In this document: positions 1 through 13,498 of the stretch, piece by piece
Position numbering within the stretch: position 1 is the first letter of the stretch
Layout of the letters: the number at the start of each line of letters is the position of its first letter
DNA from: Mesorhizobium kowhaii
GTDB lineage: Bacteria > Pseudomonadota > Alphaproteobacteria > Rhizobiales > Rhizobiaceae
Assembly: GCF_003253745.1 (NCBI RefSeq)
Contig: NZ_MZXV01000051.1
Span: 248,001 to 312,000, forward strand
Reading direction: 5' to 3'
Length of the DNA: 64,000 nt
The notes under the pieces: model-generated
The model's database searches: none
Seen by the model: only the letters and a program-made list of their open reading frames with translations
What the model was told of the DNA's origin: nothing
Made by a program: the position numbers and the translations under genes

Positions 1-1
1 C

Positions 2-70
2 GTCGCGGCCGGCGTCGAGTTCATCGCCGAGAACGGCGGCGGCGCCGGGGTGAGGCTGCGGAAGGGCTAG
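2..70 (+). CDS. 3' end of an XRE-family (HTH) transcriptional regulator, cut by window edge
   Basis: Only the last 22 codons are present, ending in TAG at 68-70. The reading frame gives a tail resembling AGVEFIAENGGGAGVRLRKG. From memory of rhizobial proteins, this Gly-rich ending followed by VRLRK is the usual C-terminus of small Cro/C1-type helix-turn-helix regulators; the helix-turn-helix itself would lie left of the window. It converges with the leftward phage-like operon that ends at 83. Whether it belongs to the element, for example as its repressor, or to flanking chromosome cannot be decided here. Confidence 0.5.
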   Translation, partial: VAAGVEFIAENGGGAGVRLRKG

Positions 71-82
71 GGATGGACCGGT

Positions 83-637
83 TCATACGAACGATTCGAC
101 CTTCGCTAGGCCATAGCTGACGTTTCCGCCGCCTGCCGAATAGCCGCTCACATTCACGGTGCCTGCTTCGCTCACTGCAGCCTTGGAATACCCGTTCCAG
201 TTGGTGGCGCCGGTATCAATGCCGACGGCCGATGTTGCGCTGAAATGCATCGACACGATTAAGTTCTTGCTCGCGTCGACCGTATAGGTGATCTCGTCAG
301 AAAGGATCGAATTGCCCGTCGTCACCGTGACGCCTGCGTTGCCGCCATTGAATAGCAATTGCGTTGGCGTCGTCTCGAAATCGTAGGTATCGCCCACGGA
401 TGCGCCTGCCCCAATATAGCAGGAATCGATGGTGAAACCGGCCGAACTCCCTGCTTTCAAAGTCACGCGGACTTTCGATCCGCCACCGTTGGAAAGACCG
501 GCCGCGAGTATCCGCTCGCGATGAGTGTAGCCGTTCCAACCGCCATTGTTGCCGGTAGGGTTCGCTTGGGCGTTGGTCTGCCAGGTCGCAACGTGCGACG
601 AACTATTCGCGACGACCGACGGGAAAGGAAAAGTCAT
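83..637 (-). CDS. putative small virion/tail-associated protein of the phage-like element
   Basis: The product has 184 residues. The ATG at 637 is chosen because an AAGGAG Shine-Dalgarno lies 8 nt upstream, whereas the longer frame to 742 would overlap the upstream gene. The protein is rich in Gly, Ser, Thr, Asn and Ala, has no membrane segment or signal peptide, and looks beta-rich, like phage fibre or decoration proteins. It is the last gene of the leftward operon, 13 nt after the tail-like gene. The function is inferred only from composition and position. Confidence 0.5.
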   Translation of the reverse strand: MTFPFPSVVANSSSHVATWQTNAQANPTGNNGGWNGYTHRERILAAGLSNGGGSKVRVTLKAGSSAGFTIDSCYIGAGASVGDTYDFETTPTQLLFNGGNAGVTVTTGNSILSDEITYTVDASKNLIVSMHFSATSAVGIDTGATNWNGYSKAAVSEAGTVNVSGYSAGGGNVSYGLAKVESFV

Positions 638-650
638 CTTTCGTACTCCT

Positions 651-2375
651 TCAGCGTTCAAATATGGCGATGGAATAAGGCTCACAAACGGAACGGGCGA
701 TGTCCCTGACGCCGGCCGTGATGTCGATGACAGAGCCGTCAATCATGTCGTCTAAGACACCCTCAAAGGCGATTTCAGACGCGTCGTAGCCGCCGGCCTG
801 CATGAGGGCCGTTAGAAAATCGGTTAGCTCCCCTTGCGTGCCGTCGCCCGATCCGTCGAAGAATGCGCGAAATGGCTGGGCTAACAATTGATGGGTGTTC
901 ACGGTCAGGTTGGATCGGCCGTCGTAGACCACCTTCGGCACCTCTCCCGAAGGATTGGCAATCGATGTCGTCAGGCCGGTATCGAGGTCGGTGAAACTGT
1001 AGGACGTCACGTCCTGGAAGAAAAACACCCCATCGAGGCGATGCAGGTCCGGGTCAGGAAAGCTCGCGGTGATCTGATAGGGCACGGCTTGCGTCCAGAC
1101 CGTCGCGCCGGTCGCTCCGTCAACGCGGATGATCTGCTGATCATCGGTGAAAACGATCAGATCCCCGTCATGCCAGAGAACATAAACCAGGTCGGTAGCG
1201 AAGGTCGCAAACTCGGTAGTGGTCGAGATCGCTCCCGTCGAGGTGATGACCGCTTTGACCAGCTTGTTATCGGCACACATCCATAGGTCTGCATTGTTGG
1301 AGCGAACCGCGCCGAACACCATGGATGGCACTTCGCTGTAACCCTCCCAGCCACCGGTGAATAACGTTCTGGTGATGCTTTCTTCCTTGATCAGGTAGAT
1401 CAAGAGGACGCCAAGATGGGCATGCGCGACGTAGACGGAAGCCGAGCCAAACCGACATAGGGCGCCCGTCTGGATAAACTGGATCGTGCCGCCTGTGTCT
1501 TCGGCCACGATCGCGCCGGTTTCGATGTCGATTAGAACTGCGTACCAAGTCAGGCCACCGCCGGAGCGTTGGAAGAATGCCAGGAGGCAGCCGAGTTGCG
1601 GGATCAACCGAATGGTGCCGCTATCAATATCGGAATAGCTGAAGGCGTTGAAACTGATCGGGATGGCGTAAATTTCGCGAAGGCCGGCAATGTGAAAACG
1701 GCGGATCCAGAAATCACCATCGAGAGCGTAGAAGGTGTTAGAATCCCAATCCACAACGGGCACCGTGTAGAGTCTGGTCGGCAACAGGATCGTGAAATTG
1801 TCGATGTCGACCGAAGATGCTTCTTGTATCCATTCCGCCTCGAAAACCGGCGGCGCACCGAGACCGACGATATCGAAATCAGTGACGACGATATCGAGAT
1901 AGCCACGATGGGCGGAGACGTTTTCTTCTCCTTCCTCGGCAACCATGGTTGGATCACGAAGCTGGGTCGATCGCCCATCATAAGCAGTGAACTGCAAGCC
2001 GTCCTGCCTGTAGCCCGTCGTCGCATCATAGATCAGCCTGCCGTTGGCGTAGAACTTCCGAAGCGTCCACGTCGAGTCCGGAACGAGCGGCCGCGCGAAC
2101 CGCAACCTGGCCGACATGTTGGCCGTGGTAGAGGTTGTCGATTGGATGATGCCCCAAAAACCGGATTCCTGATGCGTTTCCGTCACTGTCAGGATAGGAG
2201 CCACCCAAATATAGGCGCTAGGCAGCCGCGCCTTGAACCATACGACCGGGATCGTCTGACCGTAAGCAGACGTCGGAAGGCTTGTTTGAACCTCCGGAAT
2301 CGCAACGATTGGCGCTGGGGTGTCCTTGTGCTGGAGCCATATGCCAACGAAAGCCTTTGTGCCGGGAAGCGACAT
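651..2375 (-). CDS. shortened phage tail-tip-like protein
   Basis: The product has 574 residues. The ATG at 2375 shares its A with the TAA stop of the prohead protease gene (TAATG), so the two are translationally coupled. Residues about 25-160 resemble the N-terminus of GTA/phage tail tip proteins, with a TSAYGQTIPVVW-like motif and a YANGRLIYDATTG-like stretch. The middle, about 160-500, looks like a beta-propeller or fibre region. The last 60 residues resemble the start of the tail-III-like domain (LTALMQAGGYDASEI). The protein then stops, while typical homologues run to about 1000 residues or more. It therefore looks truncated or reworked. The assignment rests on remembered motifs. Confidence 0.5.
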   Translation of the reverse strand: MSLPGTKAFVGIWLQHKDTPAPIVAIPEVQTSLPTSAYGQTIPVVWFKARLPSAYIWVAPILTVTETHQESGFWGIIQSTTSTTANMSARLRFARPLVPDSTWTLRKFYANGRLIYDATTGYRQDGLQFTAYDGRSTQLRDPTMVAEEGEENVSAHRGYLDIVVTDFDIVGLGAPPVFEAEWIQEASSVDIDNFTILLPTRLYTVPVVDWDSNTFYALDGDFWIRRFHIAGLREIYAIPISFNAFSYSDIDSGTIRLIPQLGCLLAFFQRSGGGLTWYAVLIDIETGAIVAEDTGGTIQFIQTGALCRFGSASVYVAHAHLGVLLIYLIKEESITRTLFTGGWEGYSEVPSMVFGAVRSNNADLWMCADNKLVKAVITSTGAISTTTEFATFATDLVYVLWHDGDLIVFTDDQQIIRVDGATGATVWTQAVPYQITASFPDPDLHRLDGVFFFQDVTSYSFTDLDTGLTTSIANPSGEVPKVVYDGRSNLTVNTHQLLAQPFRAFFDGSGDGTQGELTDFLTALMQAGGYDASEIAFEGVLDDMIDGSVIDITAGVRDIARSVCEPYSIAIFER

Positions 2376-2788
2376 TAACCGGCCCCCATCTCGCAAATGG
2401 AGTCGATGAGTGCGGCCGGACAGCGAGGCTCTTCAACCAGGGAGATCTCATCAATCCGGAGCACCTGGCGAACAAAGGAAATACCGGAGGCAATCGGTCT
2501 TGCCATGGTTTCCTTGCGGCCGAGCGAAAGGCCAGGCAGTTTCCCCGACACCATGAGATCCCGCGCCAATTGAGCGCGCGGCGAATCTGAAAAGACCTCG
2601 CCCACGCAAAGAAGGCCCCGGTCGTCTTCTCGAATTTTAAGCCATCTGCCGATTTCCTCACCTTCATGCTCAAGCAACATTTGAGGTTGAAAACCGCGCT
2701 GGATCAGCTGGTGGAACGCGCCGGCGCCTACGACAAATTCATCGTTGCAGATAACACCCCAGGCGATGGCATAGCCGGCGATCATCAT
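2375..2788 (-). CDS. HK97-family prohead protease (peptidase U35-like)
   Basis: The product has 137 residues. The ATG at 2788 overlaps the upstream stop as ATGA and has GGAGG just before it. Motifs fit the family: GYAIAWG near the start, GAF at about residue 20, LLEHEGEEIGRWLKIRED at about 40-55 containing the His expected of the catalytic centre, LPGLSLG at about 90, and IDEISLVEEPRCPAA near the end. In this family the enzyme cleaves capsid and scaffold during head maturation. It is short for the family (usually 150-200 residues), lacking much of the C-terminus. It lies in the same operon as a major capsid gene, which supports the call. Confidence 0.65.
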   Translation of the reverse strand: MMIAGYAIAWGVICNDEFVVGAGAFHQLIQRGFQPQMLLEHEGEEIGRWLKIREDDRGLLCVGEVFSDSPRAQLARDLMVSGKLPGLSLGRKETMARPIASGISFVRQVLRIDEISLVEEPRCPAALIDSICEMGAG

Positions 2789-3030
2789 TTGCAAGCCGCC
2801 TCCAGATCCTGCCGGATTTCCCACATCATCGGCCAATCTGCCACCCAAGCCGTGCCGCTTCCCCACTCTGGCGGCTCCGGCCCGTCGACTTCGAGTGGAT
2901 TCGGCTGCCAAGGCTTCAGCGCCAGGGCATGGTAGAGGCCCATGCGGTCGCCGGCCTTGAATGCGTCGATCGCGGCGGGACTGATCCAGCGCTTGATGTC
3001 GCGGCGAAGTGGCGTGCGCTTTGTGGCCAT
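2785..3030 (-). CDS. small phage-element protein of unknown function (paired with next gene)
   Basis: The product has 81 residues, starting ATG at 3030 directly after the stop of the preceding gene and ending by 4-nt overlap with the protease gene. It begins MATKRTPLRR, a basic N-terminus that the preceding gene product also carries. The rest is Trp- and Pro-rich (KPWQPNPLEVDGPEPPEW) and soluble. I do not recognise a characterised domain. Its place between the small terminase and the protease suggests a head-assembly or packaging role, which is inference only. Confidence 0.6.
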   Translation of the reverse strand: MATKRTPLRRDIKRWISPAAIDAFKAGDRMGLYHALALKPWQPNPLEVDGPEPPEWGSGTAWVADWPMMWEIRQDLEAACK

Positions 3031-3285
3031 TCAGGGCGCTCCGAACTCGTCTAAGGCCCAAGGTGTTTCGCGCGTGTCGGTCGGCTTCCATGAGGCCAGG
3101 AACGCGCCTCCCAGGCGCTTCCATGCCTCGGGAGCGGCGGCTTTGACTTCAGCGTCGGTGAACAGTCCAAACGGTTCCAGATCGTTGAAGAAATCAAACT
3201 CGCATGTGAACGCGTCGGACCATGCGGCAAGCTCTGCCGCACTGCCTATCTGTCGGCGCCGAAGCGGCGTGCGTTTCGTTGCCAA
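3031..3285 (-). CDS. small phage-element protein of unknown function, TTG start
   Basis: The product has 84 residues. TTG at 3285 is preferred because a GGGAAGG ribosome site lies 8 nt upstream, the gap to the small terminase gene is then 4 nt, and the product then begins with ATKRTPLRR, matching the next gene's MATKRTPLRR. A frame to 3348 is open but would overlap the terminase gene by 59 nt. The remaining sequence contains FFNDLEPFGLFTDAEVKA and ends TPWALDEFGAP. No known domain is recognised. Confidence 0.55.
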   Translation of the reverse strand: MATKRTPLRRRQIGSAAELAAWSDAFTCEFDFFNDLEPFGLFTDAEVKAAAPEAWKRLGGAFLASWKPTDTRETPWALDEFGAP

Positions 3286-3289
3286 TTCG

Positions 3290-3661
3290 CTAGCCTTCCC
3301 ATCCGACACCGCCAGAAGGCCGGCCAGGACCGGCGCGCACCGGCTCAAGATCCAGGCCCAGGCGGGCGAGCGTGCGGATGCACAGCGAACGCGATGCGAT
3401 CTCGTGCTTCAAGCCGGGATGATCCCTGAGCCCGGCCTTGGTCCGAATGACAGCGCCGTCAGCATCGATTTGCGCCTTCAGTGCCTCGGCCCGGTCGAGC
3501 GCCTGACAGGCCGTCACCAGGAATTCAATGCCGGCGGCGTCTTCAATGCCGTATTGGCTATGGACTGACTGCCAGAGAGCGCGGCCGTGCTCGCCAAGGG
3601 GACGAGGTGGCGCCGGGCTCTTGGGCGGGTTGTTGGCTACCAGTTTGAGGTTTTTCGCCAT
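3290..3661 (-). CDS. phage terminase small subunit, P27-like
   Basis: The product has 123 residues with an ATG start at 3661. A basic, Pro-rich N-terminus (MAKNLKLVANNPPKSPAPPRPL) is followed by a helical region with GRALWQSV, YGIEDAAGIEFL and CQALDRAEAL, and then GLRDHPGLKHE and LARLGLDLEPV. This layout matches small terminase proteins of the P27-like type, which recognise DNA for packaging and hand it to the large subunit. No large terminase gene is present beside it, which is unusual for a phage and typical of a satellite. Confidence 0.6.
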   Translation of the reverse strand: MAKNLKLVANNPPKSPAPPRPLGEHGRALWQSVHSQYGIEDAAGIEFLVTACQALDRAEALKAQIDADGAVIRTKAGLRDHPGLKHEIASRSLCIRTLARLGLDLEPVRAGPGRPSGGVGWEG

Positions 3662-3763
3662 TTATTTTTTTGCCTCACCAATGAAATGCTCAATTTAATG
3701 AAAGATAATGGATGGGGGCCGGTCGCATGGTTTGCTCGCAGGAATCGGCAAAGTCCCCCCCGG

Positions 3764-3982
3764 TCAGTTGACCGCATGGGAAGGCGCGGATGGTTCGCTT
3801 GCGAAGCGCGTGATCTCACCCATCGTCTTCTTGTGCCACTCGCGCAGTAGCTCGGCGTACGCGTCGACAGATGCCTTGATCTCGTCAGCGGTGCCGCCTT
3901 TGCTTTGGATGAATTCGGCGTGCTCGTGCAGCGCCGCGCGCATCGCATCGGTTAGCTTGGCGTCGGCTTCGGTGAGCGTCAT
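3764..3982 (-). CDS. small hypothetical phage-element protein
   Basis: The product has 72 residues, largely helical and acidic-to-neutral (MTLTEADAKLTDAMRAAL then DEIKASVDAYAELLREWHKK). Its ATG at 3982 overlaps the previous stop as ATGA, so it is coupled to the 147-residue gene upstream. A 102-bp AT-richer gap (3662-3763) separates it from the small terminase gene. No domain is recognised. A scaffold-like or head-associated helper is possible on context alone. Confidence 0.55.
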   Translation of the reverse strand: MTLTEADAKLTDAMRAALHEHAEFIQSKGGTADEIKASVDAYAELLREWHKKTMGEITRFASEPSAPSHAVN

Positions 3983-4422
3983 TTGGTTGCCCTCGGGTTA
4001 GTGACGGTGACGGGCTTGTCGCCCTTGCTGGATAGCTGCCACAGTGAGGCGTTGTTGCCGGGCACGATGCCTTCCGGCACGTCGGCGAGCGCCGTCCACA
4101 TGCTGCTTTGATACGTGACGCAAGAGCCCCTCTGGTAGGGCAGCGCGCGCTGATAGGTGCCGGCATACTTCACGCCGATCACCTTGCCCTCTTCCAGGGC
4201 TTTGATGCGTGCTTCTGCTGCTTCATGTGTCTTGCGACTGATCACGTGGAATTCGGCGAGCAGATCAAACACCATCCGTGTCGACAACGGCTTGAGAAGG
4301 TCTGTGAACCCGTTGCTATCGATAAGGAGCTGGCGAACCTCACGGACTTCGGCAATAAACGCCTCGTCGTCCGCGCTTCTCTTGCCGGCCGCTTTGTCTC
4401 TGATGCGTTTTGCTTCGCTCAT
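3979..4422 (-). CDS. phage-element protein with carbohydrate-binding-like C-terminal module
   Basis: The product has 147 residues with ATG at 4422, 17 nt after the capsid gene; a longer frame to 4524 would overlap that gene. The N-terminal half is a charged helical region (MSEAKRIRDKAAGK ... EAAEARIKALEEGK). Residues about 90-140 read YAGTYQ, YQRGSCVTYQSSMWTAL and PGNNASLWQL. This pattern of aromatic residues and 'YxxGxxVTYxxSxW' resembles the small chitin-binding (ChtBD3-like) modules common on phage virion proteins. A role as a capsid-decorating or head-fibre protein is an inference. Confidence 0.55.
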   Translation of the reverse strand: MSEAKRIRDKAAGKRSADDEAFIAEVREVRQLLIDSNGFTDLLKPLSTRMVFDLLAEFHVISRKTHEAAEARIKALEEGKVIGVKYAGTYQRALPYQRGSCVTYQSSMWTALADVPEGIVPGNNASLWQLSSKGDKPVTVTNPRATK

Positions 4423-4439
4423 GATGGCGCTCCCTCCGA

Positions 4440-5489
4440 TCACGGGCTGTTTCCAGAGCCCCAATCGACGCCAGTCAGCTTGAACACGCTGTTCGCGCGG
4501 ACGGCTTTGGCGCCGGCCCAGCATGAGGCAACGATGCCGACGAGGTTGCGTTGGAACAGCGGAATGAGCGTGGTCGAGGTTGTGGCCGGGCTGTCGGGAC
4601 TGTCGTCCATCTGCACGGTCGCATGCTTGAATCGCTCGATCGTGACCGCGTCGGAATTGCCGGCAATGCCGCTGGCGTCGATCGCGTAGAACTCGCCGCT
4701 TGCAATTGCATCGGACGGGATCAACGGCGTCTTCAAAAGCGTGCCGCCGGAAACCGGGTTGATATCACTGAAGGCGAATCCGCCGTCCACTGTCATGGTT
4801 GCAAGACTTTTGATCGTGTCGGGATGCGTGGCGAAATAGAGCCGCGATTGCTGCCCCAGGTCGAGCTCCGCCAACGCAACTCGCAAATCCTGCTGCACGG
4901 CCTGGACGGTCGAGCCCGAGCTCGCCGCTGTGTTGGCCGCAGCGGCCAGGATGGCCACGAATTTCTCATCGACGGCGACGACGGTAGCGCCTCGCAGTTC
5001 ATGAGAAATCAAGGGATCGGAAAGCACGCCCAGCTTTAGCAACTCATCCGAAACGACGACGATCGAAGCCGCGCGGAACGGGTCGATGCTCTCAGTTTCG
5101 AGCGACAAGCGGCTGATCTTTTTCGCACTGCCTTCGCCGACAACATAGGCGTTGGCGCCGGCCGTGAGAGCCGTAAGCTTGCTCCTCAATGGAACGCGCA
5201 ACATGCCGCCATCGAGCAAGCGGAAAAACAGGCCGGAATTTCTCAAGCTATCAAGGAACGCCGACGTCACGATGTCGTACTGCGAAAGCTCCGAGCCCCA
5301 TGTGTCGCCGTTTGCCTGGCCGGCAGCGACAGGGCTTTTGACGATCGACACAACACGCGGCGACAGGCCGGATTGTTCTGCGATCAGGCCGCGCTCTTCG
5401 GCCATTGGGGACGAAGCCATGACGCGGGCGATGCGGGCGAAGTCCATTCCCTTGTCGATGTCCAACGGGACAGAAATTGCAGCGCGCAT
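4440..5489 (-). CDS. phage major capsid protein, HK97 fold
   Basis: The product has 349 residues. The ATG at 5489 has GGAG 6 nt upstream; the open frame to 5513 uses a weaker TTG. Features typical of the family are the SEL-then-D-I-V-T-SAFLDSL N-arm region at about 70-90, and VVVSDELLKLGVLSDPLISHELRGA at about 155-185, which matches the E-loop/spine-helix area. Near the C-terminus, TLIPLFQRNLVGIVASCWAGAKAV matches the conserved P-domain ending. The protein builds the capsid shell. It is encoded upstream of the small terminase and protease, the reverse of the usual HK97-phage order (terminase, portal, protease, capsid). Confidence 0.72.
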   Translation of the reverse strand: MRAAISVPLDIDKGMDFARIARVMASSPMAEERGLIAEQSGLSPRVVSIVKSPVAAGQANGDTWGSELSQYDIVTSAFLDSLRNSGLFFRLLDGGMLRVPLRSKLTALTAGANAYVVGEGSAKKISRLSLETESIDPFRAASIVVVSDELLKLGVLSDPLISHELRGATVVAVDEKFVAILAAAANTAASSGSTVQAVQQDLRVALAELDLGQQSRLYFATHPDTIKSLATMTVDGGFAFSDINPVSGGTLLKTPLIPSDAIASGEFYAIDASGIAGNSDAVTIERFKHATVQMDDSPDSPATTSTTLIPLFQRNLVGIVASCWAGAKAVRANSVFKLTGVDWGSGNSP

Positions 5490-5540
5490 AGTGGTCTCCA
5501 AATCACGGTTCAAATGCTCTGAAGCACACGAAAGAGTTTT

Positions 5541-5552
5541 GTCACACGTGAC
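5541..5552. promoter_or_regulatory. inverted repeat upstream of the capsid gene (possible operator)
   Basis: GTCAC-AC-GTGAC forms a perfect 5-bp inverted repeat about 52 nt upstream of the capsid start, in the only sizeable gap (5490-5561) of this part of the operon. No clear -35/-10 pair was found, so a regulatory role is a guess from position and symmetry. Confidence 0.25.
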
Positions 5553-5561
5553 GCAATAGGT

Positions 5562-5813
5562 TTATTCAGGGACGATATCAACGGCCTTCAGGCTAGCCAG
5601 CAACTCGGACACGGCTTCTGAAAGCGCCTTCCGATCATTCGAAATGTCAGGATCGATCTTCTTCAGATTAACCAGAAGTCGGGTAATGTGTTGCTTGTTC
5701 AAGGCCACGGGCAGCAGGATGATTCCCGCGTCGTAGCGGGCGCGCTCCTCTTGCTTCCGAATCCGGTCGGCCTCGCGCCGCTGATCGGCCGTTCTGGATT
5801 GGCCGCCGGTCAT
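5562..5813 (-). CDS. small hypothetical protein following the replication-like gene
   Basis: The product has 83 residues. Its ATG at 5813 overlaps the previous stop (ATGA at 5810-5813). The N-terminal half is strongly charged (RTADQRREADRIRKQEERARYDAG) and likely helical. The C-terminal half (LNKQHITRLLVNLKKIDPDISNDRKALSEAVSELLASL) could be a short helical DNA- or protein-binding unit. No family is recognised. Coupling to the replication-like gene suggests an accessory role in replication or regulation. Confidence 0.5.
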   Translation of the reverse strand: MTGGQSRTADQRREADRIRKQEERARYDAGIILLPVALNKQHITRLLVNLKKIDPDISNDRKALSEAVSELLASLKAVDIVPE

Positions 5814-6466
5814 CGTGCCAGCCCTTTGCGCTTTAGGTTGCGCAGCAGAGCATCGGAAACCTTGCCTATCGGATTGCCTACATCCTCCCGAGATATAGAG
5901 GTGCCCACGGTTTCCGTACTATGGGTAGTGCCCACGGTTTCCGTACTATGAAACGGCTCTGAGCGGTGCGGTTTCCGTACTAATCCTTGGTACGGTTTCC
6001 GATACTGGACTTTTGTTTTTTCAGACGCCTTCCGCGCGGCAGAAGCGATAAGTTCCGCCTGCTCTTTCGTGTTGATTTTGCGCCAATCGTCGGTTGCCTC
6101 AGTCAGCCGTGTAGGCCGATATGTGAGGCGATAGACGCTCGGGCGCCTCCACTCTGCATTGCCGGCTCTGCCGCGCTCTGTGATCTCCACAAAGCCCAGC
6201 GCAACCACTTCACGGATTGCAGGGGCGATGGCCTGCCGATGCACGCCGTATTCTTCGAATTGGTCGAACGTCGTCGGCAGTTTGCCGTTGTCGTCGCCGC
6301 CGTGGCTGGCAAGCTCGATTTCAAGCCTGGACAAGATCCGATGGCCCGACAGTGACAAGGCTCGGTAGGCCGGTGAGCGTTGCATGTCGATCAGCCGCCA
6401 AGAGAACTGCCCGCCGATCTGGGTGCGCTTTCCGCGCCGTGCGCGGCCTTTGTCGTCGGCCATCAC
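5810..6466 (-). CDS. putative replication-initiator-like protein of the element
   Basis: The product has 218 residues, with its start overlapping the upstream stop at 6463-6466. The N-terminus is basic (DKGRARRGKRTQIGGQF), followed by RLIDMQRSPAYRALSLSGHRILSRLEIELASHGG and a winged-helix-like block FDQFEEYGVHRQAIAPAIREVVALGFVEITERG. From memory, this resembles a family widespread in rhizobial integrative elements and usually left unnamed. The C-terminal tail (from about residue 150) is low complexity, with two STETVGT repeats encoded by iteron-like DNA. A role in replication or its control is suggested by the HTH-like block and the repeats, but is unproven. Confidence 0.5.
   Translation of the reverse strand: MMADDKGRARRGKRTQIGGQFSWRLIDMQRSPAYRALSLSGHRILSRLEIELASHGGDDNGKLPTTFDQFEEYGVHRQAIAPAIREVVALGFVEITERGRAGNAEWRRPSVYRLTYRPTRLTEATDDWRKINTKEQAELIASAARKASEKTKVQYRKPYQGLVRKPHRSEPFHSTETVGTTHSTETVGTSISREDVGNPIGKVSDALLRNLKRKGLAR
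5908..6007 (+). repeat. iteron-like direct repeats inside the replication-like gene
   Basis: CGGTTTCCGTACTA occurs exactly at 5908-5921, 5935-5948 and 5969-5982. A fourth copy with one inserted base and a changed last base lies at 5993-6007. Start-to-start spacings are 27, 34 and 24 bp. The first two copies extend to an identical 17-bp block (ACGGTTTCCGTACTATG). The repeats are direct, unit-sized and clustered at the 3' part of a gene resembling a replication protein, as plasmid and satellite origins often are. Confidence 0.6.
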
Positions 6467-6822
6467 GCATGGCCTTTACGCTTGGGCTTCAACGCGCGGC
6501 GATGGGTTTGGACATGATGCAACCTGCAAAGCCAGATTACCGCCGCCGGTTTATCATACGAACTATGGTGCCCATCTACGTTGTCGGTTGTGCCGCAGAC
6601 GCTACAAGGCTGGCGCTGGACTAGACCCCTGCGGATCGCGGCGGCAAGGCAGGAATGAGCCCAGACGGCCCATTGATTCCGAGCCTTCCAACGCGCCTGC
6701 GAAGTGTCTTTCGCTGGACGTTGGCGGGGTGTTTTGGTAATGCTGCTGCCATTGCTGTTCTGAATATCGTTCTCGCGAAGCTCGCCCTGGCCGGCGAGCT
6801 TTCGCTTTTCAGCCGCTCGCAT
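6463..6822 (-). CDS. HNH-like zinc-binding protein of the element
   Basis: The product has 119 residues. ATG at 6822 is preferred over TTG at 6861 because GGGAGG lies 5 nt upstream. The N-terminal 60 residues are basic and probably disordered. The C-terminal 45 residues hold CSVCG, then GHHSSYDKP, WLCRLHH and QTH, a Cys2/His-rich pattern like small HNH nucleases carried by phages and satellites near packaging genes. HNH proteins can assist terminase cleavage in some cos phages. Here the pattern is compact, so activity is uncertain and a purely structural zinc protein is possible. Confidence 0.55.
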   Translation of the reverse strand: MRAAEKRKLAGQGELRENDIQNSNGSSITKTPRQRPAKDTSQARWKARNQWAVWAHSCLAAAIRRGLVQRQPCSVCGTTDNVDGHHSSYDKPAAVIWLCRLHHVQTHRRALKPKRKGHA

Positions 6823-7015
6823 TCGCGCCTCCCGCAATCTGATGCGATTGGCGAATAGCAATCACAACATCAGCCGAAGACAGGTCGAACATTTCGCGCA
6901 TTGCCGGCAGCAGCGGCCTTGGCCTTGCCAGCGGTGGCGTTGTCGCCAGGAATCGAGCGCATTGGTTTATCCGCTCGTCGCCAACGTGATCGGTAGTTGC
7001 GGGGGAAGCAGCCAT
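6809..7015 (-). CDS. small hypothetical protein between excisionase and HNH-like genes
   Basis: The product has 68 residues. Its ATG at 7015 uses the last A of the preceding TAA (TAATG), and its end overlaps the HNH-like gene by 14 nt. The C-terminal half (RPLLPAMREMFDLSSADVVIAIRQSHQI) looks like a short helix-turn-helix or helical hairpin. I recall similar small ORFs directly after AlpA-type genes in rhizobial elements, without any known function. Confidence 0.5.
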   Translation of the reverse strand: MAASPATTDHVGDERINQCARFLATTPPLARPRPLLPAMREMFDLSSADVVIAIRQSHQIAGGANASG

Positions 7016-7215
7016 TATGCGGCCTCGCTTTCCGAGCGGGCGAGGGGACGCGAAGCCGTCCAGCAATCAATCTCTTCGTCTGACCAGACGCGAGTATTGG
7101 GGCCGAAATATCTTCCCGGCGGAAAGCCTTCGTCCTTGATCCAGTCGAGCAACGTCGGCCAATTGGTGACGATGCCGCGCGCCTTAAGGTCTTTGAAGCG
7201 GAGAAACGTAGTCAT
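7015..7215 (-). CDS. AlpA/excisionase-like DNA-binding protein
   Basis: The product has 66 residues. ATG at 7215 is preceded by AGAGG at a spacing of 6 nt. The sequence FLRFKDLKARGIVTNWPTLLDWIKDEGFPPGRYFGPNTRVWSDEEIDCWTASRP fits the MerR-like winged HTH of AlpA proteins: a helix pair, a 'FPxG..GPNTRVW' wing and a terminal EEI..W helix. AlpA-type proteins activate excision or satellite transcription and are a hallmark of P4-like and PICI-like satellites. It lies between the integrase side and the replication/capsid genes. Confidence 0.75.
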   Translation of the reverse strand: MTTFLRFKDLKARGIVTNWPTLLDWIKDEGFPPGRYFGPNTRVWSDEEIDCWTASRPLARSESEAA

Positions 7216-7281
7216 CGGGTGCCTCTTTGGTTGAGCGAGAGGCCACCCAGATACGTCGATCTTAGCGGAAAATAAAAAGCT

Positions 7282-7815
7282 TTAAGTCGCGCTTTGAGGC
7301 GCAATTAATTGGAAGTCTTCGAAGCGAAAGCGGTCTTCGCCAGCGGCCCTTGAACCGCTTACGGTGGTGTAACTTTCCTCAACCGCGTCCTGCGTCACCG
7401 ATTGCGCGTATTTGTTTTTGCTCAGCAGTTGCATCGCTTCGCTCAGTAGGCCGTCCCTTGTCGGCCCGTTATCCTTGCTCTTGGGCGGCCGGCCCTTTTT
7501 GGCCGGTTCTGGCAGTTCATCAAGCCCGGCAAGAAATAGGCAGCTTCTTACGGCCGACCATCGGAGATAGTGCGCATAGTCCTTTACCATTCGGCTTTTA
7601 AGGCGGGCGTGAGGGCCTTTGACTCCCGGCATGGATTTGGTGTTGAAGTTGTCAATGATCAGGTTGAGAACCGCCAGTGATGCCCATTCAGGCAGCGGAA
7701 TTTTCCATTCGGCGCACATGCCGACAGCGCTGAAAAGAACCGGAAGCAATCCGGTTTCTTCCCAGTGTTTTTTCCATCTGTTGAGGTAGCCGTCATAAAA
7801 CTCTTGGTGGTTCAT
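7282..7815 (-). CDS. hypothetical protein coupled to the integrase
   Basis: The product has 177 residues. The ATG at 7815 overlaps the integrase stop (7812-7815). A helical N-terminal domain contains FYDGYLNRWKKHWEETG and WASLAVLNLIIDNF. A basic linker with KKGRPPKSKD resembles an AT-hook-like motif, and the C-terminus is polar. No established family is recognised. The strict coupling with the integrase suggests a role in recombination control or early element functions, which is inference. Confidence 0.55.
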   Translation of the reverse strand: MNHQEFYDGYLNRWKKHWEETGLLPVLFSAVGMCAEWKIPLPEWASLAVLNLIIDNFNTKSMPGVKGPHARLKSRMVKDYAHYLRWSAVRSCLFLAGLDELPEPAKKGRPPKSKDNGPTRDGLLSEAMQLLSKNKYAQSVTQDAVEESYTTVSGSRAAGEDRFRFEDFQLIAPQSAT

Positions 7816-9017
7816 TGTGCTGCCTTCCTGATCGGCACCACGTTGGCGCTAGGGTCGTTCTTGATGATGGTATCGAGTAGGGCGCCCAGGCGTTCCAAAG
7901 CATCGCCCTTTTCGTCGCGGTAGGCGTGTCGGTCATAGATCCCTTCCACGCCGGCAATCACGTGGCCCATGACGCGCTCTGCAATGTCGGGTCGGACGCC
8001 AGCACGGGACATGAGAGAGCGGGCAGTGCGCCGCAGATCGTGAATAACCCACGGCTCTAACTTCGCCTGAGCTTCCTTCGCGCGCTTGTCGAAGTTGATT
8101 TTTGCCCGCGACATGCCGTTGAAATGGCCGTCGTCGCCGCGACCAGCGAAGACGTAGGGGTTTTTACCCATCCGGCTTTGGCTGCGGATGATTTCGAGGG
8201 CGAGGGCAGACAGCTTGAGGTCGCCGCCGGTTCCCTTCTCACGGTCGTCGCTCGGCACGTGCCAGACGCCATCAATGGACACGTCGTCCCATTTGATCGT
8301 CATCAGCTTTTCGCGGCGTTGAGCGGTCGCGAGGGCAAACCGCATCATTGCGCCGAAAGGGCCTTCCGAATGTTTCCAGATGGATCGGATTTCATCGTCG
8401 GTAAGGATGCGCTCGCGAGCCCGATCCTTCGGAACCGTGCGGCGCATTCCCCGGACGATCGGCGACACATAGTCATCGTTGCGAGCGGCAAACCAGTTGC
8501 AGACACCGCGGACGATCGCCAGCACCGAATCCGCCTGCCGGGCGCCGTTCTCGTCCTCGATCTTGTCGAGCAGGGCGGCAACGTCGCCGCGCCGGATCGA
8601 GACAAATTCCCGCTTGCCCCACTGGGGGATGACATACACGTCAAGGCAGCGGCGGATTTCATATTCTGAGAGCAAACCCTTGGCGACAACGTGGCGTTTG
8701 AGATAGCCGTCTGAAACGTCATTGAAGGTCACCGGAGCGGCCTTTTGCTCGACAGGTGGCAAACCCTGGCGGATGCGCTCAATGGCTTCCCTTGCCAGCG
8801 TGCGCGCCTTCTCAATGCCCATCTTGTCGGCGGCGCCGATGGTTGCCCAAACCTGTTTCCCGTTCGGGTCGCGCGCCACGGCAACGAATGATTTCGCCCC
8901 GGACGGCATCACCCGGACGTAGTGCCCGCGCAGCTCGGGATCGGGGGAAGTGTAGCGCGTTGCCTTGGGCTTCAGCGCCTCAACGCCTGTGTCGGAAAAC
9001 TTGCGCCTGCGGGTCAT
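7812..9017 (-). CDS. tyrosine-type site-specific integrase (P4-like)
   Basis: The product has 401 residues, starting ATG at 9017 with AGGAAG 4 nt upstream. The order of domains is an N-terminal DUF4102-like arm-binding region (about 1-90, with GHYVRVMPSGAKSFV), a SAM-like core-binding domain (about 95-185), and the catalytic domain. The catalytic domain has Arg in LATAQRREKLMTIKWDD (about 230), HDLRRTARS (about 323) and the Tyr in VEGIYDRHAYRDEK (about 360). It lies against a tRNA-Lys 3' fragment at 9165-9214, the expected attachment site for this integrase class. It is full length and appears functional. Confidence 0.9.
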   Translation of the reverse strand: MTRRRKFSDTGVEALKPKATRYTSPDPELRGHYVRVMPSGAKSFVAVARDPNGKQVWATIGAADKMGIEKARTLAREAIERIRQGLPPVEQKAAPVTFNDVSDGYLKRHVVAKGLLSEYEIRRCLDVYVIPQWGKREFVSIRRGDVAALLDKIEDENGARQADSVLAIVRGVCNWFAARNDDYVSPIVRGMRRTVPKDRARERILTDDEIRSIWKHSEGPFGAMMRFALATAQRREKLMTIKWDDVSIDGVWHVPSDDREKGTGGDLKLSALALEIIRSQSRMGKNPYVFAGRGDDGHFNGMSRAKINFDKRAKEAQAKLEPWVIHDLRRTARSLMSRAGVRPDIAERVMGHVIAGVEGIYDRHAYRDEKGDALERLGALLDTIIKNDPSANVVPIRKAAQ

Positions 9018-9030
9018 AGGACTTCCTTCC

Positions 9031-9137
9031 GGCTAACGGCTGGCTAACAATCGGTGCCGATAAGGACAACTAAAGTCAGCTAAGCTGGATAGAAGTAGTA
9101 TGCCTTTTCAGTAGGTTATGCAACGGTTGCGTTAGCC
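9031..9137. repeat. GGCTAAC repeats between integrase and att site (possible arm-type sites)
   Basis: GGCTAAC occurs at 9031-9037 and 9042-9048, and its inverted form GTTAGCC at 9131-9137; related CAGCTAAGCTGG sequence lies between. Short repeats flanking the core on the integrase side are where arm-binding sites of tyrosine integrases and excisionases are normally found. The copies are only 7 bp long, so chance is possible. Confidence 0.3.
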
Positions 9138-9164
9138 CGGTTTAGTCGGCCTTAGTGATGAGGG

Positions 9165-9214
9165 CCTGACTTTTAATCAGTAGGTCATGGGTTCGAATCC
9201 CATCGCGCTCACCA
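9165..9214 (+). other. attachment site: 3' half of a tRNA-Lys(UUU) gene
   Basis: The segment contains an anticodon stem-loop (CTGA-CTTTTAA-TCAG, anticodon TTT at 9172-9174), the variable loop, a T arm with GGTTCGAATCC, the acceptor 3' strand CGCGCTC and ACCA. Upstream there is no matching 5' acceptor strand (GAGCGCG would be needed) or D arm, so this is not a complete tRNA. It marks the right junction of the integrated element. The intact tRNA-Lys is expected at the other end, left of the window. Confidence 0.75.
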
Positions 9215-9240
9215 ACAGTTCCGAGTCCGTGGCAGCAATC

Positions 9241-10299
<1,059 letters not shown>

Positions 10300-10338
10300 T
10301 GGGTTTTCCTCGAAAAAAGTTTGATGTCGGACTGTGCC

Positions 10339-11160
10339 TCAGCCGCCCTTGACGGCGCCGGCGGTCAGTCCGGCGACGATCTGCCTTTGTGCGAACATGG
10401 TCAGAACCAGCACCGGCAACGTCACCACAAGTGCTGCGGCGGCGAGCGGCCCCCAGCTCACCTGCTCGTAGGAGAGCATGTTGTAGACGGCGACCGGCAG
10501 CGTTCTCGTCTCACGGCTGGCGAGCACCACGCCGAAGACAAAATTGTTCCATGAGAAGATGACGGACAGGATGAAGGCGACGACGATGCCCGGCTTGGCG
10601 ATGGGCAACGCGACCAGCCGGAAAACCTGCCAGGAGCTGGCGCCATCGATGTTGGCCGCCTCTTCCAGTTCCATAGGCGTGGTCTCGAAATAGCCGATCA
10701 TCACCCAGACCACGATTGGCACGGTCACCACCAGATGGATGATGATCTGCGGCCATAGCGTGCCGAGAATCCCGACCCATTGGAACAGCAGGAACAGCGG
10801 GATGAGATAGGAAAGCCCCGGTGTCATGCGGGCGATCATGATGACGACCGCCGACCGTTCGGCCTTGAGCCGTGCGATGCCATAGCCGGCCGGCACGCCG
10901 ATCAGCAGCGCCAGCAGCGTCGCCGTGCCTGTCACCAGAACCGAATTCCAGAGATAGAGCAGGAAATTGTTCTCCTCGAACACCTTTGCATAGTTCGACC
11001 AGGCGAGGTGTTCGGGGATCAGGATCGGCGGATAGGCGCCGTTGTCGATCTCGAATTTCAGCGACAGCGAGATCATCCAGAGGAAGAACAGGATCGCCGG
11101 CGAGACAAAGACCAGAGCCGCGAAAAACAGCCCGATCTGGTTGAGCAGCCGTGAACTCAT
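10339..11160 (-). CDS. sugar ABC transporter permease (MalG type)
   Basis: The product has 273 residues with six predicted membrane segments; the first spans about residues 8-30. The EAA loop EEAANIDGASSWQVFRLVALPIAKPG at about 165-190 is the site that contacts the ATPase. Size and motif fit the second inner-membrane permease of a CUT1 carbohydrate importer. It follows the MalF-type gene with no gap (start at 11160, previous stop at 11161). Confidence 0.9.
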   Translation of the reverse strand: MSSRLLNQIGLFFAALVFVSPAILFFLWMISLSLKFEIDNGAYPPILIPEHLAWSNYAKVFEENNFLLYLWNSVLVTGTATLLALLIGVPAGYGIARLKAERSAVVIMIARMTPGLSYLIPLFLLFQWVGILGTLWPQIIIHLVVTVPIVVWVMIGYFETTPMELEEAANIDGASSWQVFRLVALPIAKPGIVVAFILSVIFSWNNFVFGVVLASRETRTLPVAVYNMLSYEQVSWGPLAAAALVVTLPVLVLTMFAQRQIVAGLTAGAVKGG

Positions 11161-12099
11161 CTATTTGCCCTCCACGCCGATCCACTGGGAGCGCTGGCGC
11201 AACATCAGCAGGATGAAGGACAGGGCCACGATGACGATGAAGAAAACCACGGCCATGGCCGAGCCATAGCCGATGTCGTAGTAGGAGAAGGCGGTGTTGT
11301 AGAGGTAGATGTTGATCGTCTCCGAGGCCGTGCCTGGGCCGCCCTGGGTCATGGCGTAGATAATGTCGAAGCTCTTCAGCGCATCGATGGTGCGGATAAT
11401 GACCGCGATCATCAGGAACGGTGCGATCATCGGCAGAGTGAGGTAGCGGAATTGCTGCCAGGCATTGGCGCCGTCGATTTCGGCGCTCTCGAACGGCTCG
11501 CGCGGCACGGACGCCAGGCCGCCCAGCACGATCAGCATCACCAGCGGCGTCCACTGCCACGTCTCGACCGCAACCAGCGAAGGGATGACTGTGTTGGCGT
11601 TGAAGATCCATTCCTGCGCCGGGATGCCGACCAGCGACAGAAGGTAGTTGAGCACGCCGAGCTGGGGATGGAACATCATCGTCCAGACCAGCGCTACGGC
11701 AACAGGCGTTGCCATCATTGGCATCACGAAGACGCCGCGCAACAGGCCGCGCAGCGGGAACCTGGCGTCGAAGATCAGGGCGGCGACGGTGCCGAGGATC
11801 ATCGGCGCGGCAACCGAAAGGAAGGTGTAGGTCAAGGTATGGAAAAGCGATTCCCAGAAGCGTTGATCGACAGCCAGCCGCAGATAATTCTCCACCCCGG
11901 CAAAGCTTCGCGACTGGCCGAGCGTCCAGCGGTTGACGCTCATCCACAGCGTGAAGGCCCAGGGAAAGACGATCACGGCGCCGACGACGATGAGCGCCGG
12001 AATGACGAAGGGCCAATAGTTGGGAGCCAGCCGGATCGCCTGGCTCCCTTCGATGGCTTGCGTCGTCACCCCGGTGCGTTCTGGGGTGGTGGCGGACAT
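11161..12099 (-). CDS. sugar ABC transporter permease (MalF type)
   Basis: The product has 312 residues with about six membrane segments; the first spans about 30-52. The EAA loop ESAEIDGANAWQQFRYLTLPMIAP lies at about 208-232. The start ATG at 12099 overlaps the stop of the binding-protein gene by one base (TGATG). It forms the translocation channel together with the MalG-type partner encoded immediately downstream. Confidence 0.9.
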   Translation of the reverse strand: MSATTPERTGVTTQAIEGSQAIRLAPNYWPFVIPALIVVGAVIVFPWAFTLWMSVNRWTLGQSRSFAGVENYLRLAVDQRFWESLFHTLTYTFLSVAAPMILGTVAALIFDARFPLRGLLRGVFVMPMMATPVAVALVWTMMFHPQLGVLNYLLSLVGIPAQEWIFNANTVIPSLVAVETWQWTPLVMLIVLGGLASVPREPFESAEIDGANAWQQFRYLTLPMIAPFLMIAVIIRTIDALKSFDIIYAMTQGGPGTASETINIYLYNTAFSYYDIGYGSAMAVVFFIVIVALSFILLMLRQRSQWIGVEGK

Positions 12100-13436
12100 C
12101 AGCCTTGCTCGCTCCTGTCGAGGACCGGCTGGAATTGTTCGGTGGCTTTCTTCAGCTCTTGTGCCGGATCAGCACCGGCGATCAGGTTGGTCAGCGCGAC
12201 ACCATAGATGTCACGGAACTCGGTGACCGGGATGATGACCGGCAGCGACAGCCGGCTGACATTGCCGGAGCCGACCACCGCATCGAGCCAGCTTGCCGGC
12301 ATGATGACTCCTTCGCGCACCTTTGGATCTTCAAGCACCGATTTGCGGAACGGTACGCCGGCGCCTGCCTGCAGCAAGCGTGCGCCCATGGCCGGCGACA
12401 CTGCCCACTGACAGAACAGATAGGCGGCCTCCTTCTTCTCGCTGGCGGCCGTCACGCCGATCCCGTCGCCAAAGGTGCCCGCGGCATGCGCCTTGGGCCC
12501 CTTGGGCATGACGCCGTAGCCGACCTTGCCGACCACCCGCGATTTTTCCGGATTTTCCATCGGCGGGGCAAAGCCCACGCCGTCGAACCACATGCCGATC
12601 TTGCCTTGCAGGAAGGCGGACTGCGCTTCGGCCCAGTTGAAGCCGGTGACGCCTGGAGGCGCGGACTTGGTCATCAGCCGTTGGTAGAGGCCGGCGGCCT
12701 CGATCGCCTCGGGCGATTCCGTGCGCAGCTTCCCCTGGCCGTCGAGTGGCGTCATGTCGTAGCCGAGCATGAGTGACGTCCACACCGGCGTGTTGGCGTT
12801 CTTGATGCCGCGGGCGACGAAACCGTAGGTGTTGGTCGAGGGGTCCGTCAGCGCTTCGGCGGCGGCCACCATCTGCTCGAACGTCTCGGGATATTTCAGG
12901 CCCTTGGCCTCGAACAACTCCTTGTTCCAGTAGAGGATCCAGTAATCGACCGAGAAAGGCAGCGAGCGCAGCACGCCCTTGCCGTCCTTGGCGAACAGCA
13001 TGCCGGCATCGGCGAAATCGCTTTCGACCAGCCCCGGATCGGTCAGCGTGGGGTCGGCGAGATAGCCGGCGATGTCGGCCAGCCAGCCGCCCTTCTCGAA
13101 CTGCCGCTTCTGGACGTGATAGCTCAGATGCACGACGTCGAAGCTCGGCTTGCCGGAGCTCAGCTCGATCACCGTCTTCTGGCGCTGCTGCTGTTCGGGC
13201 GTTGCCTCGGCATTGACCTTGATGCCTGTCAGCTCCTCGAACTCGGCGAGATATTTTATAAGGGTGTCGCTGCGCGGGCTTTTGACGAGATTGACATCGA
13301 GTGTCGTGCCGGCAAAGCGTTTCCAGTCGACACCGGCGGCAAAGCCCGGGCGAATGCCTGCAAGGCCGGCGGCGGCAAGTGCCGCGGTTCCCTGGAGGAG
13401 TTGCCTCCTGGTTGGGTTGAACAGATTGGACGACAT
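12099..13436 (-). CDS. extracellular sugar-binding protein of the ABC transporter, Tat-type signal
   Basis: The product has 445 residues. The N-terminus TRRQLLQGTAALAAAGLAG carries a twin-arginine signal with cleavage likely after GFAA (about residue 34), so the folded protein would be exported by the Tat system to the periplasm. The mature part shows family-1 solute-binding features such as ELTGIKVNAEATPEQQQRQK and WILYWNKELFEAKGLKYPETFEQM. It delivers the substrate to the two permeases encoded downstream. Binding-site residues cannot be assigned by eye, so the sugar is unknown. Confidence 0.88.
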   Translation of the reverse strand: MSSNLFNPTRRQLLQGTAALAAAGLAGIRPGFAAGVDWKRFAGTTLDVNLVKSPRSDTLIKYLAEFEELTGIKVNAEATPEQQQRQKTVIELSSGKPSFDVVHLSYHVQKRQFEKGGWLADIAGYLADPTLTDPGLVESDFADAGMLFAKDGKGVLRSLPFSVDYWILYWNKELFEAKGLKYPETFEQMVAAAEALTDPSTNTYGFVARGIKNANTPVWTSLMLGYDMTPLDGQGKLRTESPEAIEAAGLYQRLMTKSAPPGVTGFNWAEAQSAFLQGKIGMWFDGVGFAPPMENPEKSRVVGKVGYGVMPKGPKAHAAGTFGDGIGVTAASEKKEAAYLFCQWAVSPAMGARLLQAGAGVPFRKSVLEDPKVREGVIMPASWLDAVVGSGNVSRLSLPVIIPVTEFRDIYGVALTNLIAGADPAQELKKATEQFQPVLDRSEQG

Positions 13437-13498
13437 TTCTTCCTCCCGGTTGCTGTCGTTGTGGATTGCACCGCGACCGCGGCGCGGCTCATGCTTCC

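Follow-up and report, generated by a model that had tools for sequence, protein, structure and literature searches.

The element at the left end of the window (i.e. the whole 64,000-nucleotide stretch of Mesorhizobium kowhaii DNA that was analysed) is well supported as a phage satellite, and it seems, with a probability of roughly 70%, that it is an intact PICI-like satellite at tRNA-Lys(TTT), whose own major capsid protein (MCP) forms small heads on helper portals while the large terminase (TerL) of the helper packages its DNA. The packaging motor and portal are probably borrowed from a helper phage, since the element has a capsid gene of its own but neither motor nor portal. It looks like a member of a family found in many relatives and like a variant of known lone-capsid satellites. 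The initial annotation, which had presented it as an undescribed phage satellite, was therefore right about the satellite but too strong in 'undescribed', because lone capsid homologues are already described in the available text on SaPIbov5 (Ccm; PMC5052747), on PmCI172 and EcCICFT073 (PMC6092414), and on the HE-PICI 11capE (PMC10111431). The chief novelty is a tape-measure gene in 5 of the 17 satellite loci.

The element is small and integrative, with its own integrase and with att sites that form an exact 49-bp repeat, the spacing of which gives a length of 10,647 bp (Table 1). Its left att copy was found by the leftward extension that had been proposed, 1,481 bp to the left of the first base of the window and within an intact tRNA-Lys gene (C85:246492-246567, = L009 8492-8567). 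The range first given for the element (70-9214) thus holds an att copy at its right end but is incomplete on the left, where the element overruns the window edge by ~1.5 kb. A large terminase, portal or tail tube gene in this overrun had been named as evidence against a satellite; only an XRE regulator and three small ORFs lie there, without a match to any of these. A 'tRNA-Ser' called by ARAGORN at 9125-9214 was rejected as integration site, being spurious (its last 49 bases are the 3' half of tRNA-Lys). In the empty-site comparison, the left flank and tRNA-Lys are kept in relatives and the right flank has no continuity there, a mismatch that could perhaps be explained by another island between tRNA-Lys and the right flank.

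The leftward gene run proved real, with 16 in-window genes in the ORF list instead of the 15 counted before, and the order of capsid, small terminase and protease is as had been claimed. Among the functions originally assigned, integrase, HNH, MCP, small terminase (TerS) and protease are matched, but the AlpA and replication labels are weak, and the tail-type gene had gone unnamed. The integrase reads into the element and the AlpA-like gene stands two genes on from it, so that, with these two labels weak, the order follows that described for Gram-negative PICIs in the consulted part of PMC10111431 (integration, regulator, replication, late zone, integrase inward). No primase was recognised in the element, whose one sign of a replication gene is the weak replication-initiator-like match; as to a gene of primase type, a DUF3631 match came from the relative G052. 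The N-terminal part of the 574-aa protein resembles 'tail/host specificity' proteins of phiCbK-group phages (best tblastn E against Caulobacter phages 2e-8, 43% of the query covered), and the TerS had no phage match in tblastn at E 0.01. A complete virion or packaging gene set is lacking: Pfam, PHROGs and the TerL and portal profiles gave no match for large terminase, portal, connector, tail tube, tape measure or lysis.

Table 1. Features of the element, in window positions unless marked otherwise.
Feature	Position	Strand	Basis
attR, 49-bp copy of tRNA-Lys(TTT) 3' half	9166..9214	+	
Tyrosine integrase, 401 aa	7812..9017	-	PF00589 E 1.4e-11; Arm-DNA-bind_3 3.7e-11; phrog_1 1.4e-54
177-aa protein	7282..7815	-	ORF; no PHROGs or Pfam family match
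AlpA-like small HTH protein (weak label)	7015..7215	-	PF05930 15.4 bits vs cut-off 21
75-aa protein	6809..7036	-	BLASTP homologues in G008, G052, L032; no family match
HNH-type endonuclease	6463..6861	-	phrog_2340 endonuclease 4.7e-17; 50% identity to L032 HNH; no match in Pfam search
Replication-initiator-like protein, 218 aa (weak label)	5810..6466	-	phrog_270 E 0.021; 60% identical homologue in G296 (BLASTP)
Small protein upstream of MCP	5562..5813	-	BLASTP homologues likewise upstream of MCP in G008, G052
MCP, HK97 fold, 357 aa	4440..5513	-	PF05065 2.1e-12; phrog_617 6.1e-24
Tail-fibre-like protein (weak label)	3979..4524	-	phrog_5073 E 0.021; BLASTP 6e-18 to G008 protease ORF; domain common to G008/G052 proteases and, in other elements, to small ORFs that follow MCP
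72-aa protein	3764..3982	-	G008 homologue, BLASTP 1.4e-4
TerS	3290..3661	-	phrog_1496 4.8e-5; PF05119 (Terminase_4) E 7.9e-4, 20.2 bits vs cut-off 24.7 (sub-threshold)
84-aa protein	3031..3285	-	No PHROGs or Pfam family match
81-aa protein	2785..3030	-	No PHROGs or Pfam family match
Prohead protease, S78, 137 aa	2375..2788	-	PF04586 1.1e-9, above cut-off
Tail-type protein, 574 aa	651..2375	-	phrog_4271 2.2e-19
184-aa protein	83..637	-	phrog_3545 (phage family, function unknown) 1.7e-5
XRE/HTH_3 regulator, 3' end	1..70	+ (opposite to run)	PF01381 4.7e-9; whole gene L009:9843-10070
Three small ORFs left of window, up to C85:246519	L009 9266-9781, 8907-9269, 8708-8914	-	ORF calls
attL	G000:C85:246519-246567 (window -1481 to -1433)		

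TerL and portal profiles built for this analysis were run on MCP-bearing loci. The control consisted of 57 loci with an MCP and a length of 18 kb or more that were not on the satellite list; a portal was found in 56 of them and TerL in 55 (they do not amount to 57 independent phages, since certain IMG/VR loci derive from one and the same contig), and the single locus with neither is the M. waimense satellite itself (L024). By the same profiles 16 of the 17 satellite loci have neither gene; the exception, L208, lies within a prophage, and only the split portal gene of that prophage is matched. Outside the satellite list neither gene was found in 19/187 loci, which are L024 and 18 stretches of ~3-4 kb around MCPs that are too short to judge and mostly duplicate satellites already counted. 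Two candidates from relatives were set aside: a 263-aa protein of L032 as large terminase (phrog_13702, E 2.1e-9; the family covers only 218 positions and the TerL profile does not match), and a portal on the L031 contig as sign of a full phage, which by ORF reading belongs to a cluster of GTA type that is separated from the element by host genes.

Ten relatives have repeat-bounded or circular ends and measure 9.0-11.2 kb, with six kinds of tRNA gene occupied: tRNA-Gln (G008, 10,569 bp), tRNA-Leu (G052, 11,076 bp), tRNA-Lys (G296, 10,463 bp; G909, 10,490 bp; G1095, 10,177 bp), tRNA-Ser (L033, 10,399 bp; G678, 10,654 bp, with a 26-bp repeat), tRNA-Arg (G911, 8,957 bp) and tRNA-Pro (G981, 11,235 bp), as well as L032, a contig whose 56-bp terminal repeat gives a 10,700-bp circle. 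The att repeats are 96-100% identical in 9 of the 10 tRNA-bounded elements (the present one included) and 88% identical in G678; the repeat search found none for G150, G768 and G1191. The head module varies, because the S78 protease occurs in only 4/17 satellite loci (here and in G008, G052 and L033), and no TerS was recognised in G008, L032 or L033. The tape measures have 540-670 aa in the sister elements and in L032 adjoin tail proteins of HK97-gp10 and GTA-gp10 type. A scan of viral contigs with the present MCP alone, or with that of G296, gave no relatives.

The capsid protein itself starts with a short helical N-terminal segment. By HMM alignment (whole-ORF MAFFT alignment being uninformative on N termini), 68 of the 73 MCP ORFs longer than 420 aa have at least 83 N-terminal residues more than the satellite MCPs, 21 of these having 83-98 extra residues and the others a larger surplus, which is what protease fusions would give; the G052 frame is open 61 codons further upstream than the start used. 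Nine satellite MCPs cluster apart from 79 other MCPs (SH-aLRT 94; 90/90 rows kept). This grouping depends on a profile for which six of these nine served as seeds, the phage rows of the tree are mostly taken from the best 80 of 507 viral relatives, and the satellite MCP of G678 falls among phage MCPs. Structure prediction for the MCP reached pLDDT 86 with 54 sequences (54 of 59 non-redundant MCP references were taken in), against a poor pLDDT 48 with 6 sequences. With this model Foldseek matched HK97 (4.1e-10) as well as the capsids of SaPI1 and of the cf-PICI EcCI2, at low TM-scores (query-normalised about 0.29-0.45 among the matches listed). Judged by a dN/dS of about 0.24-0.25 (NG86), the MCP is under purifying selection.

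That the element is merely a decaying or deletion-reduced full prophage, which kept capsid genes by chance, is very unlikely and already largely refuted. Captured virion genes are present in it, the relatives differ in the late genes they retain, the MCP of G1095 has one in-frame TGA, and 4 of the 12 bounded elements (G008, L033, L031 and G1194) have the integrase in the outward orientation that prophages show. Decay is nevertheless unlikely because the ten bounded relatives are all of 9.0-11.2 kb and none shows a large terminase or portal, and a single decaying prophage, the other objection that had been raised beforehand, does not account for a gene set that recurs in relatives complete at different tRNA genes. 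Also against it are the att repeats (96-100% identical in all but G678) at six kinds of tRNA gene in elements of similar size, the intact ORFs, the purifying selection on the MCP, the grouping of MCPs apart from those of phages, the lack of any TerL or portal remnant in the profile search, and the PICI-like arrangement of inward integrase (8/12 bounded elements, the present one included) and AlpA-like gene in the present element. It is still more improbable that this is a GTA-like or domesticated particle locus serving the host rather than the element. Among the listed matches to the 574-aa protein, two bear the annotation 'gene transfer agent host specificity protein', but the locus has an integrase and att repeats, lacks TerL and portal, and varies in site with a patchy presence (satellite-type MCPs in 8/394 family genomes, own genome included).

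More weight must be given to the possibility, short of probable, that the satellite resembles SaPIbov5 in that its MCP acts purely as an interference or size-redirection factor, co-assembling with or poisoning a shell made of helper MCP. According to the available text of PMC5052747, Ccm is an MCP homologue with a Delta-domain 44 residues shorter, is required for small capsids, and cannot replace the helper MCP; in that of PMC6092414, deletion of the EcCICFT073 capsid gene left transfer unaffected. A satellite MCP thus need not form the shell, and the present MCP likewise is a homologue with a shortened Delta-type domain, while 13/17 satellite loci have an MCP but no detected protease. However, the four loci with an S78 protease would have no obvious need of it for a mere poison, and the MCP is only about 24-31% identical to phage-collection MCPs among the matches listed, an identity that casts doubt on mixed assembly with phages of this kind.

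For the favoured reading, i.e. a PICI-like satellite with small heads of its own MCP, the following course is proposed. Upon helper infection or induction, the element would be excised by its own integrase and then replicate. Its MCP, with a scaffold-like N-terminal segment far shorter than that of phage relatives, would together with the maturation protease form small heads on portals of the helper, either by itself or in a mixture with helper MCP. The satellite TerS and HNH protein would make the helper's large terminase act on satellite DNA. The particle would be finished with tails from the helper, perhaps together with the tail-type protein of the satellite, and be released by helper lysis. 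Apart from the satellite MCP, the own genome gave no match to PF05065, and none to PF04860 or PF03354 (the three families searched); a resident helper of that type was thus not seen, in a search whose PF05065 sensitivity was limited (it also missed the known satellite MCP of G008). A broader proposal, made tentatively and at rather less than even odds, is that an old alphaproteobacterial lineage builds hybrid virions, with head and tail each partly its own, on the portal, motor and tail tube of the helper, by means of a short-prodomain MCP (in some with protease) that gives a small head, packaging choice by TerS or HNH, and a tail-determining protein (the 574-aa tail-type protein or a tape measure). 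If so, a satellite-set tail length or entry could shift host range independently of the helper.

VEIMEs, tycheposons, PICMIs and MulchRoom/MiniFlayer are other recent satellite families, some of them capsid-encoding. In contrast to the present element, MulchRoom/MiniFlayer encode TerL, portal and scaffold, and PICMIs encode no capsid-remodelling genes, as far as the consulted portions of their descriptions go. The comparison with own-capsid satellites (cf-PICIs) made in the initial annotation was apt with regard to the MCP, maturation protease, TerS and HNH, but cf-PICIs, as described in the available text of PMC10690885, have genes for large terminase, portal and head-tail connectors as well and lack nothing but tails; none of these three was found here, which separates the element from them and places it outside their definition. 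Like Ccm (about 355 aa), the MCP is a lone HK97 homologue with a shortened N-terminal Delta-type region, although Ccm belongs to a staphylococcal SaPI (cos SaPIs) and the consulted text of PMC5052747 does not speak of a satellite protease. Close in plan are the Gram-negative PICIs and HE-PICIs, of about 10-11 kb, with integrase, AlpA-type gene, replication gene and a late zone often containing a capsid gene, at tRNA or prophage late-gene sites (PMC6092414, PMC10111431, as far as available); the present element, in tRNA-Lys, does not interrupt a prophage late gene. It differs from them in its alphaproteobacterial host, separate MCP group, weak AlpA match, unrecognised primase, and protease and tail-type genes, and some members of its family in the tape measures and outward integrases.

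The results suggest that Alphaproteobacteria of soil and symbiosis harbour a satellite family, beyond the Gram-negative PICIs of PMC6092414, all gammaproteobacterial in the text available. Some members have the MCP alone, others have it with a protease or with a tape measure, and this natural series lends itself to probing how shortening of the scaffold segment relates to capsid size, a question that is open for Ccm in the consulted part of PMC5052747. Pseudomonas phage PAJU2 (Detrevirus) has an MCP 31% identical over 75% of the present one and a TerS 43% identical to that of G052 (both among the matches listed), but it is a full phage with TerS, TerL, protease-MCP fusion, portal and tail genes, from which the satellite differs in gene order and gene set, its own TerS having no phage match. 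PAJU2-like phages are nominated as helpers because a further relative (G1194) sits inside the portal gene of such a prophage, and this makes the satellite idea directly testable; G1194 splits that gene at an 8-bp core, and the joined empty site gives a portal frame of 479 aa.

The candidate satellite is bounded by an exact 49-base repeat (window 9166-9214 and C85:246519-246567 of the same contig, on which the window spans 248001-312000), so that its att-to-att length is 10,647 bp, of which 1.5 kb lies beyond the left window edge. The left att site, which the initial annotation had expected in that direction, was thus located and sits within an intact tRNA-Lys(TTT) gene. By sequence comparison, related genomes conserve this gene and the left flank, which are therefore backbone; among the loci compared in relatives, the right flank does not continue from the tRNA. 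A large terminase, portal or tail tube gene before the left att site had been named as evidence against a satellite, and no match to terminase, portal or tail families was found in that 1.5-kb stretch, which contains three small ORFs besides an XRE gene. The leftward arrangement of the gene run (9017 to 83) stands, but it comprises sixteen genes by the present reading instead of fifteen. Family searches matched an integrase, an HNH protein, the major capsid protein (MCP), the small terminase (TerS), an S78 protease and a tail-type protein, with weak matches for the AlpA and replication labels, while a large terminase (TerL), portal, connector, tail tube, tape measure and lysis gene were all not found by them. 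A tRNA-Ser call at 9125-9214 was rejected as a misfold over attR.

TerL and portal profiles, iterated from the proteins of the full Pseudomonas phage PAJU2 over every ORF of the loci collected, gave 157 and 169 matches, respectively. Among the control loci (MCP-bearing, at least 18 kb and outside the satellite list; n = 57) a portal was recognised in 56 and TerL in 55, the only locus without both being the M. waimense satellite itself (L024). Neither profile matched in 16 of the 17 satellite loci, some of which are partial contigs (L025, L210); the remaining locus, L208, has two portal pieces, because the satellite of genome G1194 interrupts a prophage portal gene there. In Pfam searches of whole genomes or records, PF04860 and PF03354 were not found in M. 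kowhaii, G008, G150 and the viral contigs L032 and L033; both are present in G052 and G296, but on contigs other than that of the satellite. A PF04860 match in the contig of L031 (also viral) lies beyond host genes from the element and, by reading of the ORFs, belongs to a GTA-type cluster. In M. kowhaii no PF05065 match was found besides the element, in a search that missed the G008 satellite MCP as well and is therefore not exhaustive.

An MCP search at E 0.001 matched 6 of 150 genomes, i.e. M. kowhaii, two of the same genus (G008 and G052, 60-61% identity) and three with phage-type proteins; a 60% identical relative occurs in M. waimense. With the own genome included each time, 18 of 394 genomes matched at family level (E 1e-30), 4 of 397 at order level (E 1e-30; new were G150, G296 and G309, the last a 4.7-kb fragment) and 3 of 385 at class level (E 1e-25; new were G678 and G768). 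A satellite-type MCP, with an open frame of 352-395 aa and at least 261 bits, is encoded in 8 of the 18 family-level genomes; the remaining matches are phage-type (open frame 508-705 aa), except in G150, where an additional, weaker match is 375 aa long. L031, L032 and L033 stood out as relatives among the viral contigs. Repeats of att bound nine of the relatives and lie at genes for tRNA-Gln, Leu, Lys, Ser, Arg and Pro; none was found in G150, G768 and G1191.

Ends of the related elements and positions of tape-measure protein genes
Locus	Feature	Position or length (bp)	Site or remark
G008	att spacing	10,569	tRNA-Gln
G052	att spacing	11,076	tRNA-Leu
G296	att spacing	10,463	tRNA-Lys
L033	att spacing	10,399	tRNA-Ser
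G911	att spacing	8,957	tRNA-Arg
G909	att spacing	10,490	tRNA-Lys
G981	att spacing	11,235	tRNA-Pro
G1095	att spacing	10,177	tRNA-Lys
G678	att spacing	10,654	tRNA-Ser; 26-bp repeat, 88%
L032	circle	10,700	from terminal repeat
L031	repeat spacing	11,906	73-bp repeat, 88%; without tRNA
L032	tape-measure protein gene	4818-7619	IMG/VR contig, 10,756 bp
L033	tape-measure protein gene	6185-8131	
L031	tape-measure protein gene	5771-7387	

The AlphaFold model of the MCP (pLDDT 86, from 54 aligned sequences) matched HK97 (4.1e-10), SaPI1 (6.7e-10) and the capsid of the cf-PICI EcCI2 (3.8e-8) in Foldseek, with low TM-scores (~0.29-0.45 by query length) among the matches listed. In a tree of 90 MCPs, the phage rows of which are mostly the best 80 of 507 viral relatives, nine satellite MCPs form one group (SH-aLRT 94), divided from 79 others by a branch of 98. 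The G678 MCP is placed among these others, which suggests a separate capture, and that of G768 forms a long unplaced branch. By HMM alignment, satellite MCPs start at or near the profile start (0 to ~26 residues beyond it; 58 in G052 when counted from the first start codon). Of 73 ORFs longer than 420 aa, 68 have at least 83 more N-terminal residues and five carry fewer; the surplus is 83-98 in 21 of the long ORFs and ~267-297 in a large group, the latter as expected with a fused protease. The remaining N-terminal ~60 residues of the M. kowhaii MCP are helical in the model and in this resemble the end of a Delta domain. Among this MCP and those of G008 and G052, dN/dS is ~0.24-0.25 (NG86), at dS above 1.

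The late genes vary. The S78 protease was found in 4 of the 17 satellite loci (M. kowhaii, G008, G052 and L033). TerS was recognised in M. kowhaii, in G052 (phrog_12559, 6.1e-30) and in G296, where it is 41% identical to the G052 protein with a sub-threshold Pfam match, but not in G008, L032 or L033; in G678 one ORF resembles TerS on visual inspection only and has no Pfam match. Tape-measure genes are found in five of the 17 loci (L031, L032, L033 and, partially, G1191 and G309); L032 has HK97-gp10-like and GTA-gp10-type tail genes as well, and neither L032 nor L033 gave a portal or TerL match. Further late genes encode a 574-aa tail-type protein (M. kowhaii), a head-decoration match (G008), a laminin-G protein (G052) and, close to the late end in G150 (L027 6000-8167), MauJ-family and DUF5677-family proteins, possibly anti-phage cargo. 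The integrase points inward in eight bounded elements, that of M. kowhaii among them, and outward in four (G008, L033, L031 and G1194); a prophage int points outward (PMC10111431).

Known cf-PICIs carry MCP, protease, portal, connectors, both terminase subunits and HNH (PMC10690885), whereas portal and large terminase were not found in the present element, which is therefore not a cf-PICI. A PICI or HE-PICI is organised in zones (integration, Bro, replication and late), and the late gene that occurs most often in Gram-negative PICIs is a capsid gene (PMC10111431). EcCICFT073 has genes for a capsid and a decoration protein that can be deleted without effect on transfer; PmCI172 has a homologue of the MCP and gives heads of ~38 nm (PMC6092414). 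In SaPIbov5, the MCP homologue Ccm has a Delta domain 44 residues shorter than that of the helper; Ccm is required for small capsids and is no substitute for the helper MCP (PMC5052747). The element, of which the boundaries, intact gene set, family, lack of a detectable motor or portal and short MCP are established, probably works most like PICIs and HE-PICIs, EcCICFT073, PmCI172 and Ccm, and is by analogy best called a PICI-like satellite. Among the papers listed, no title or abstract opening describes such elements in rhizobia, which does not imply absence from print.

A clue to the helper comes from the G1194 satellite (L208 7359-16914; 9,548 bp), which splits the portal gene of a PAJU2-like prophage into two pieces with 49% and 41% identity to the PAJU2 portal. 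When the flanks are joined at an 8-bp core, a 479-aa frame is regained; PMC10111431 describes this helper-embedded configuration for HE-PICIs. The TerL profile found no match over the 20 kb that follow (L209), and the prophage may therefore be incomplete. Among the matches listed, PAJU2 TerS is 43% identical to that of G052, and PAJU2 MCP 31% to that of M. kowhaii. For the PICI-like satellite, a helper phage would trigger excision, after which it would replicate; small heads would form on helper portals, TerS/HNH would direct packaging, and the helper would supply tail and lysis. This overall explanation is given a probability of roughly 70%, its least secure step being that the satellite MCP forms the shell or changes its size.

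M. kowhaii has another satellite-like locus (C23; L010 5497-10153), with an ORF that resembles an integrase by eye, a Rep gene (DNA 70% identical to that of the element) and a Terminase_2 small subunit (PF03592, 2.1e-7), and with no capsid gene by PF05065 search. A partial third copy of the tRNA-Lys 3' end (window 15317-15352; 36 bp, 89%) suggests a second island at 9215-15317, in tandem behind the satellite, in which ABC-transporter-like ORFs were seen by eye. Copies of this 3' end also lie ~17 kb apart in two relatives (G001:C129 and G010:C51), and the same tRNA-Lys seems to house other islands there, i.e. to be an integration hot spot. Five other genome loci have ~60-70-bp stretches with 88-96% identity to the XRE gene's 3' end (window 2-75), and a sixth has a 29-bp match; these are perhaps XRE paralogues.
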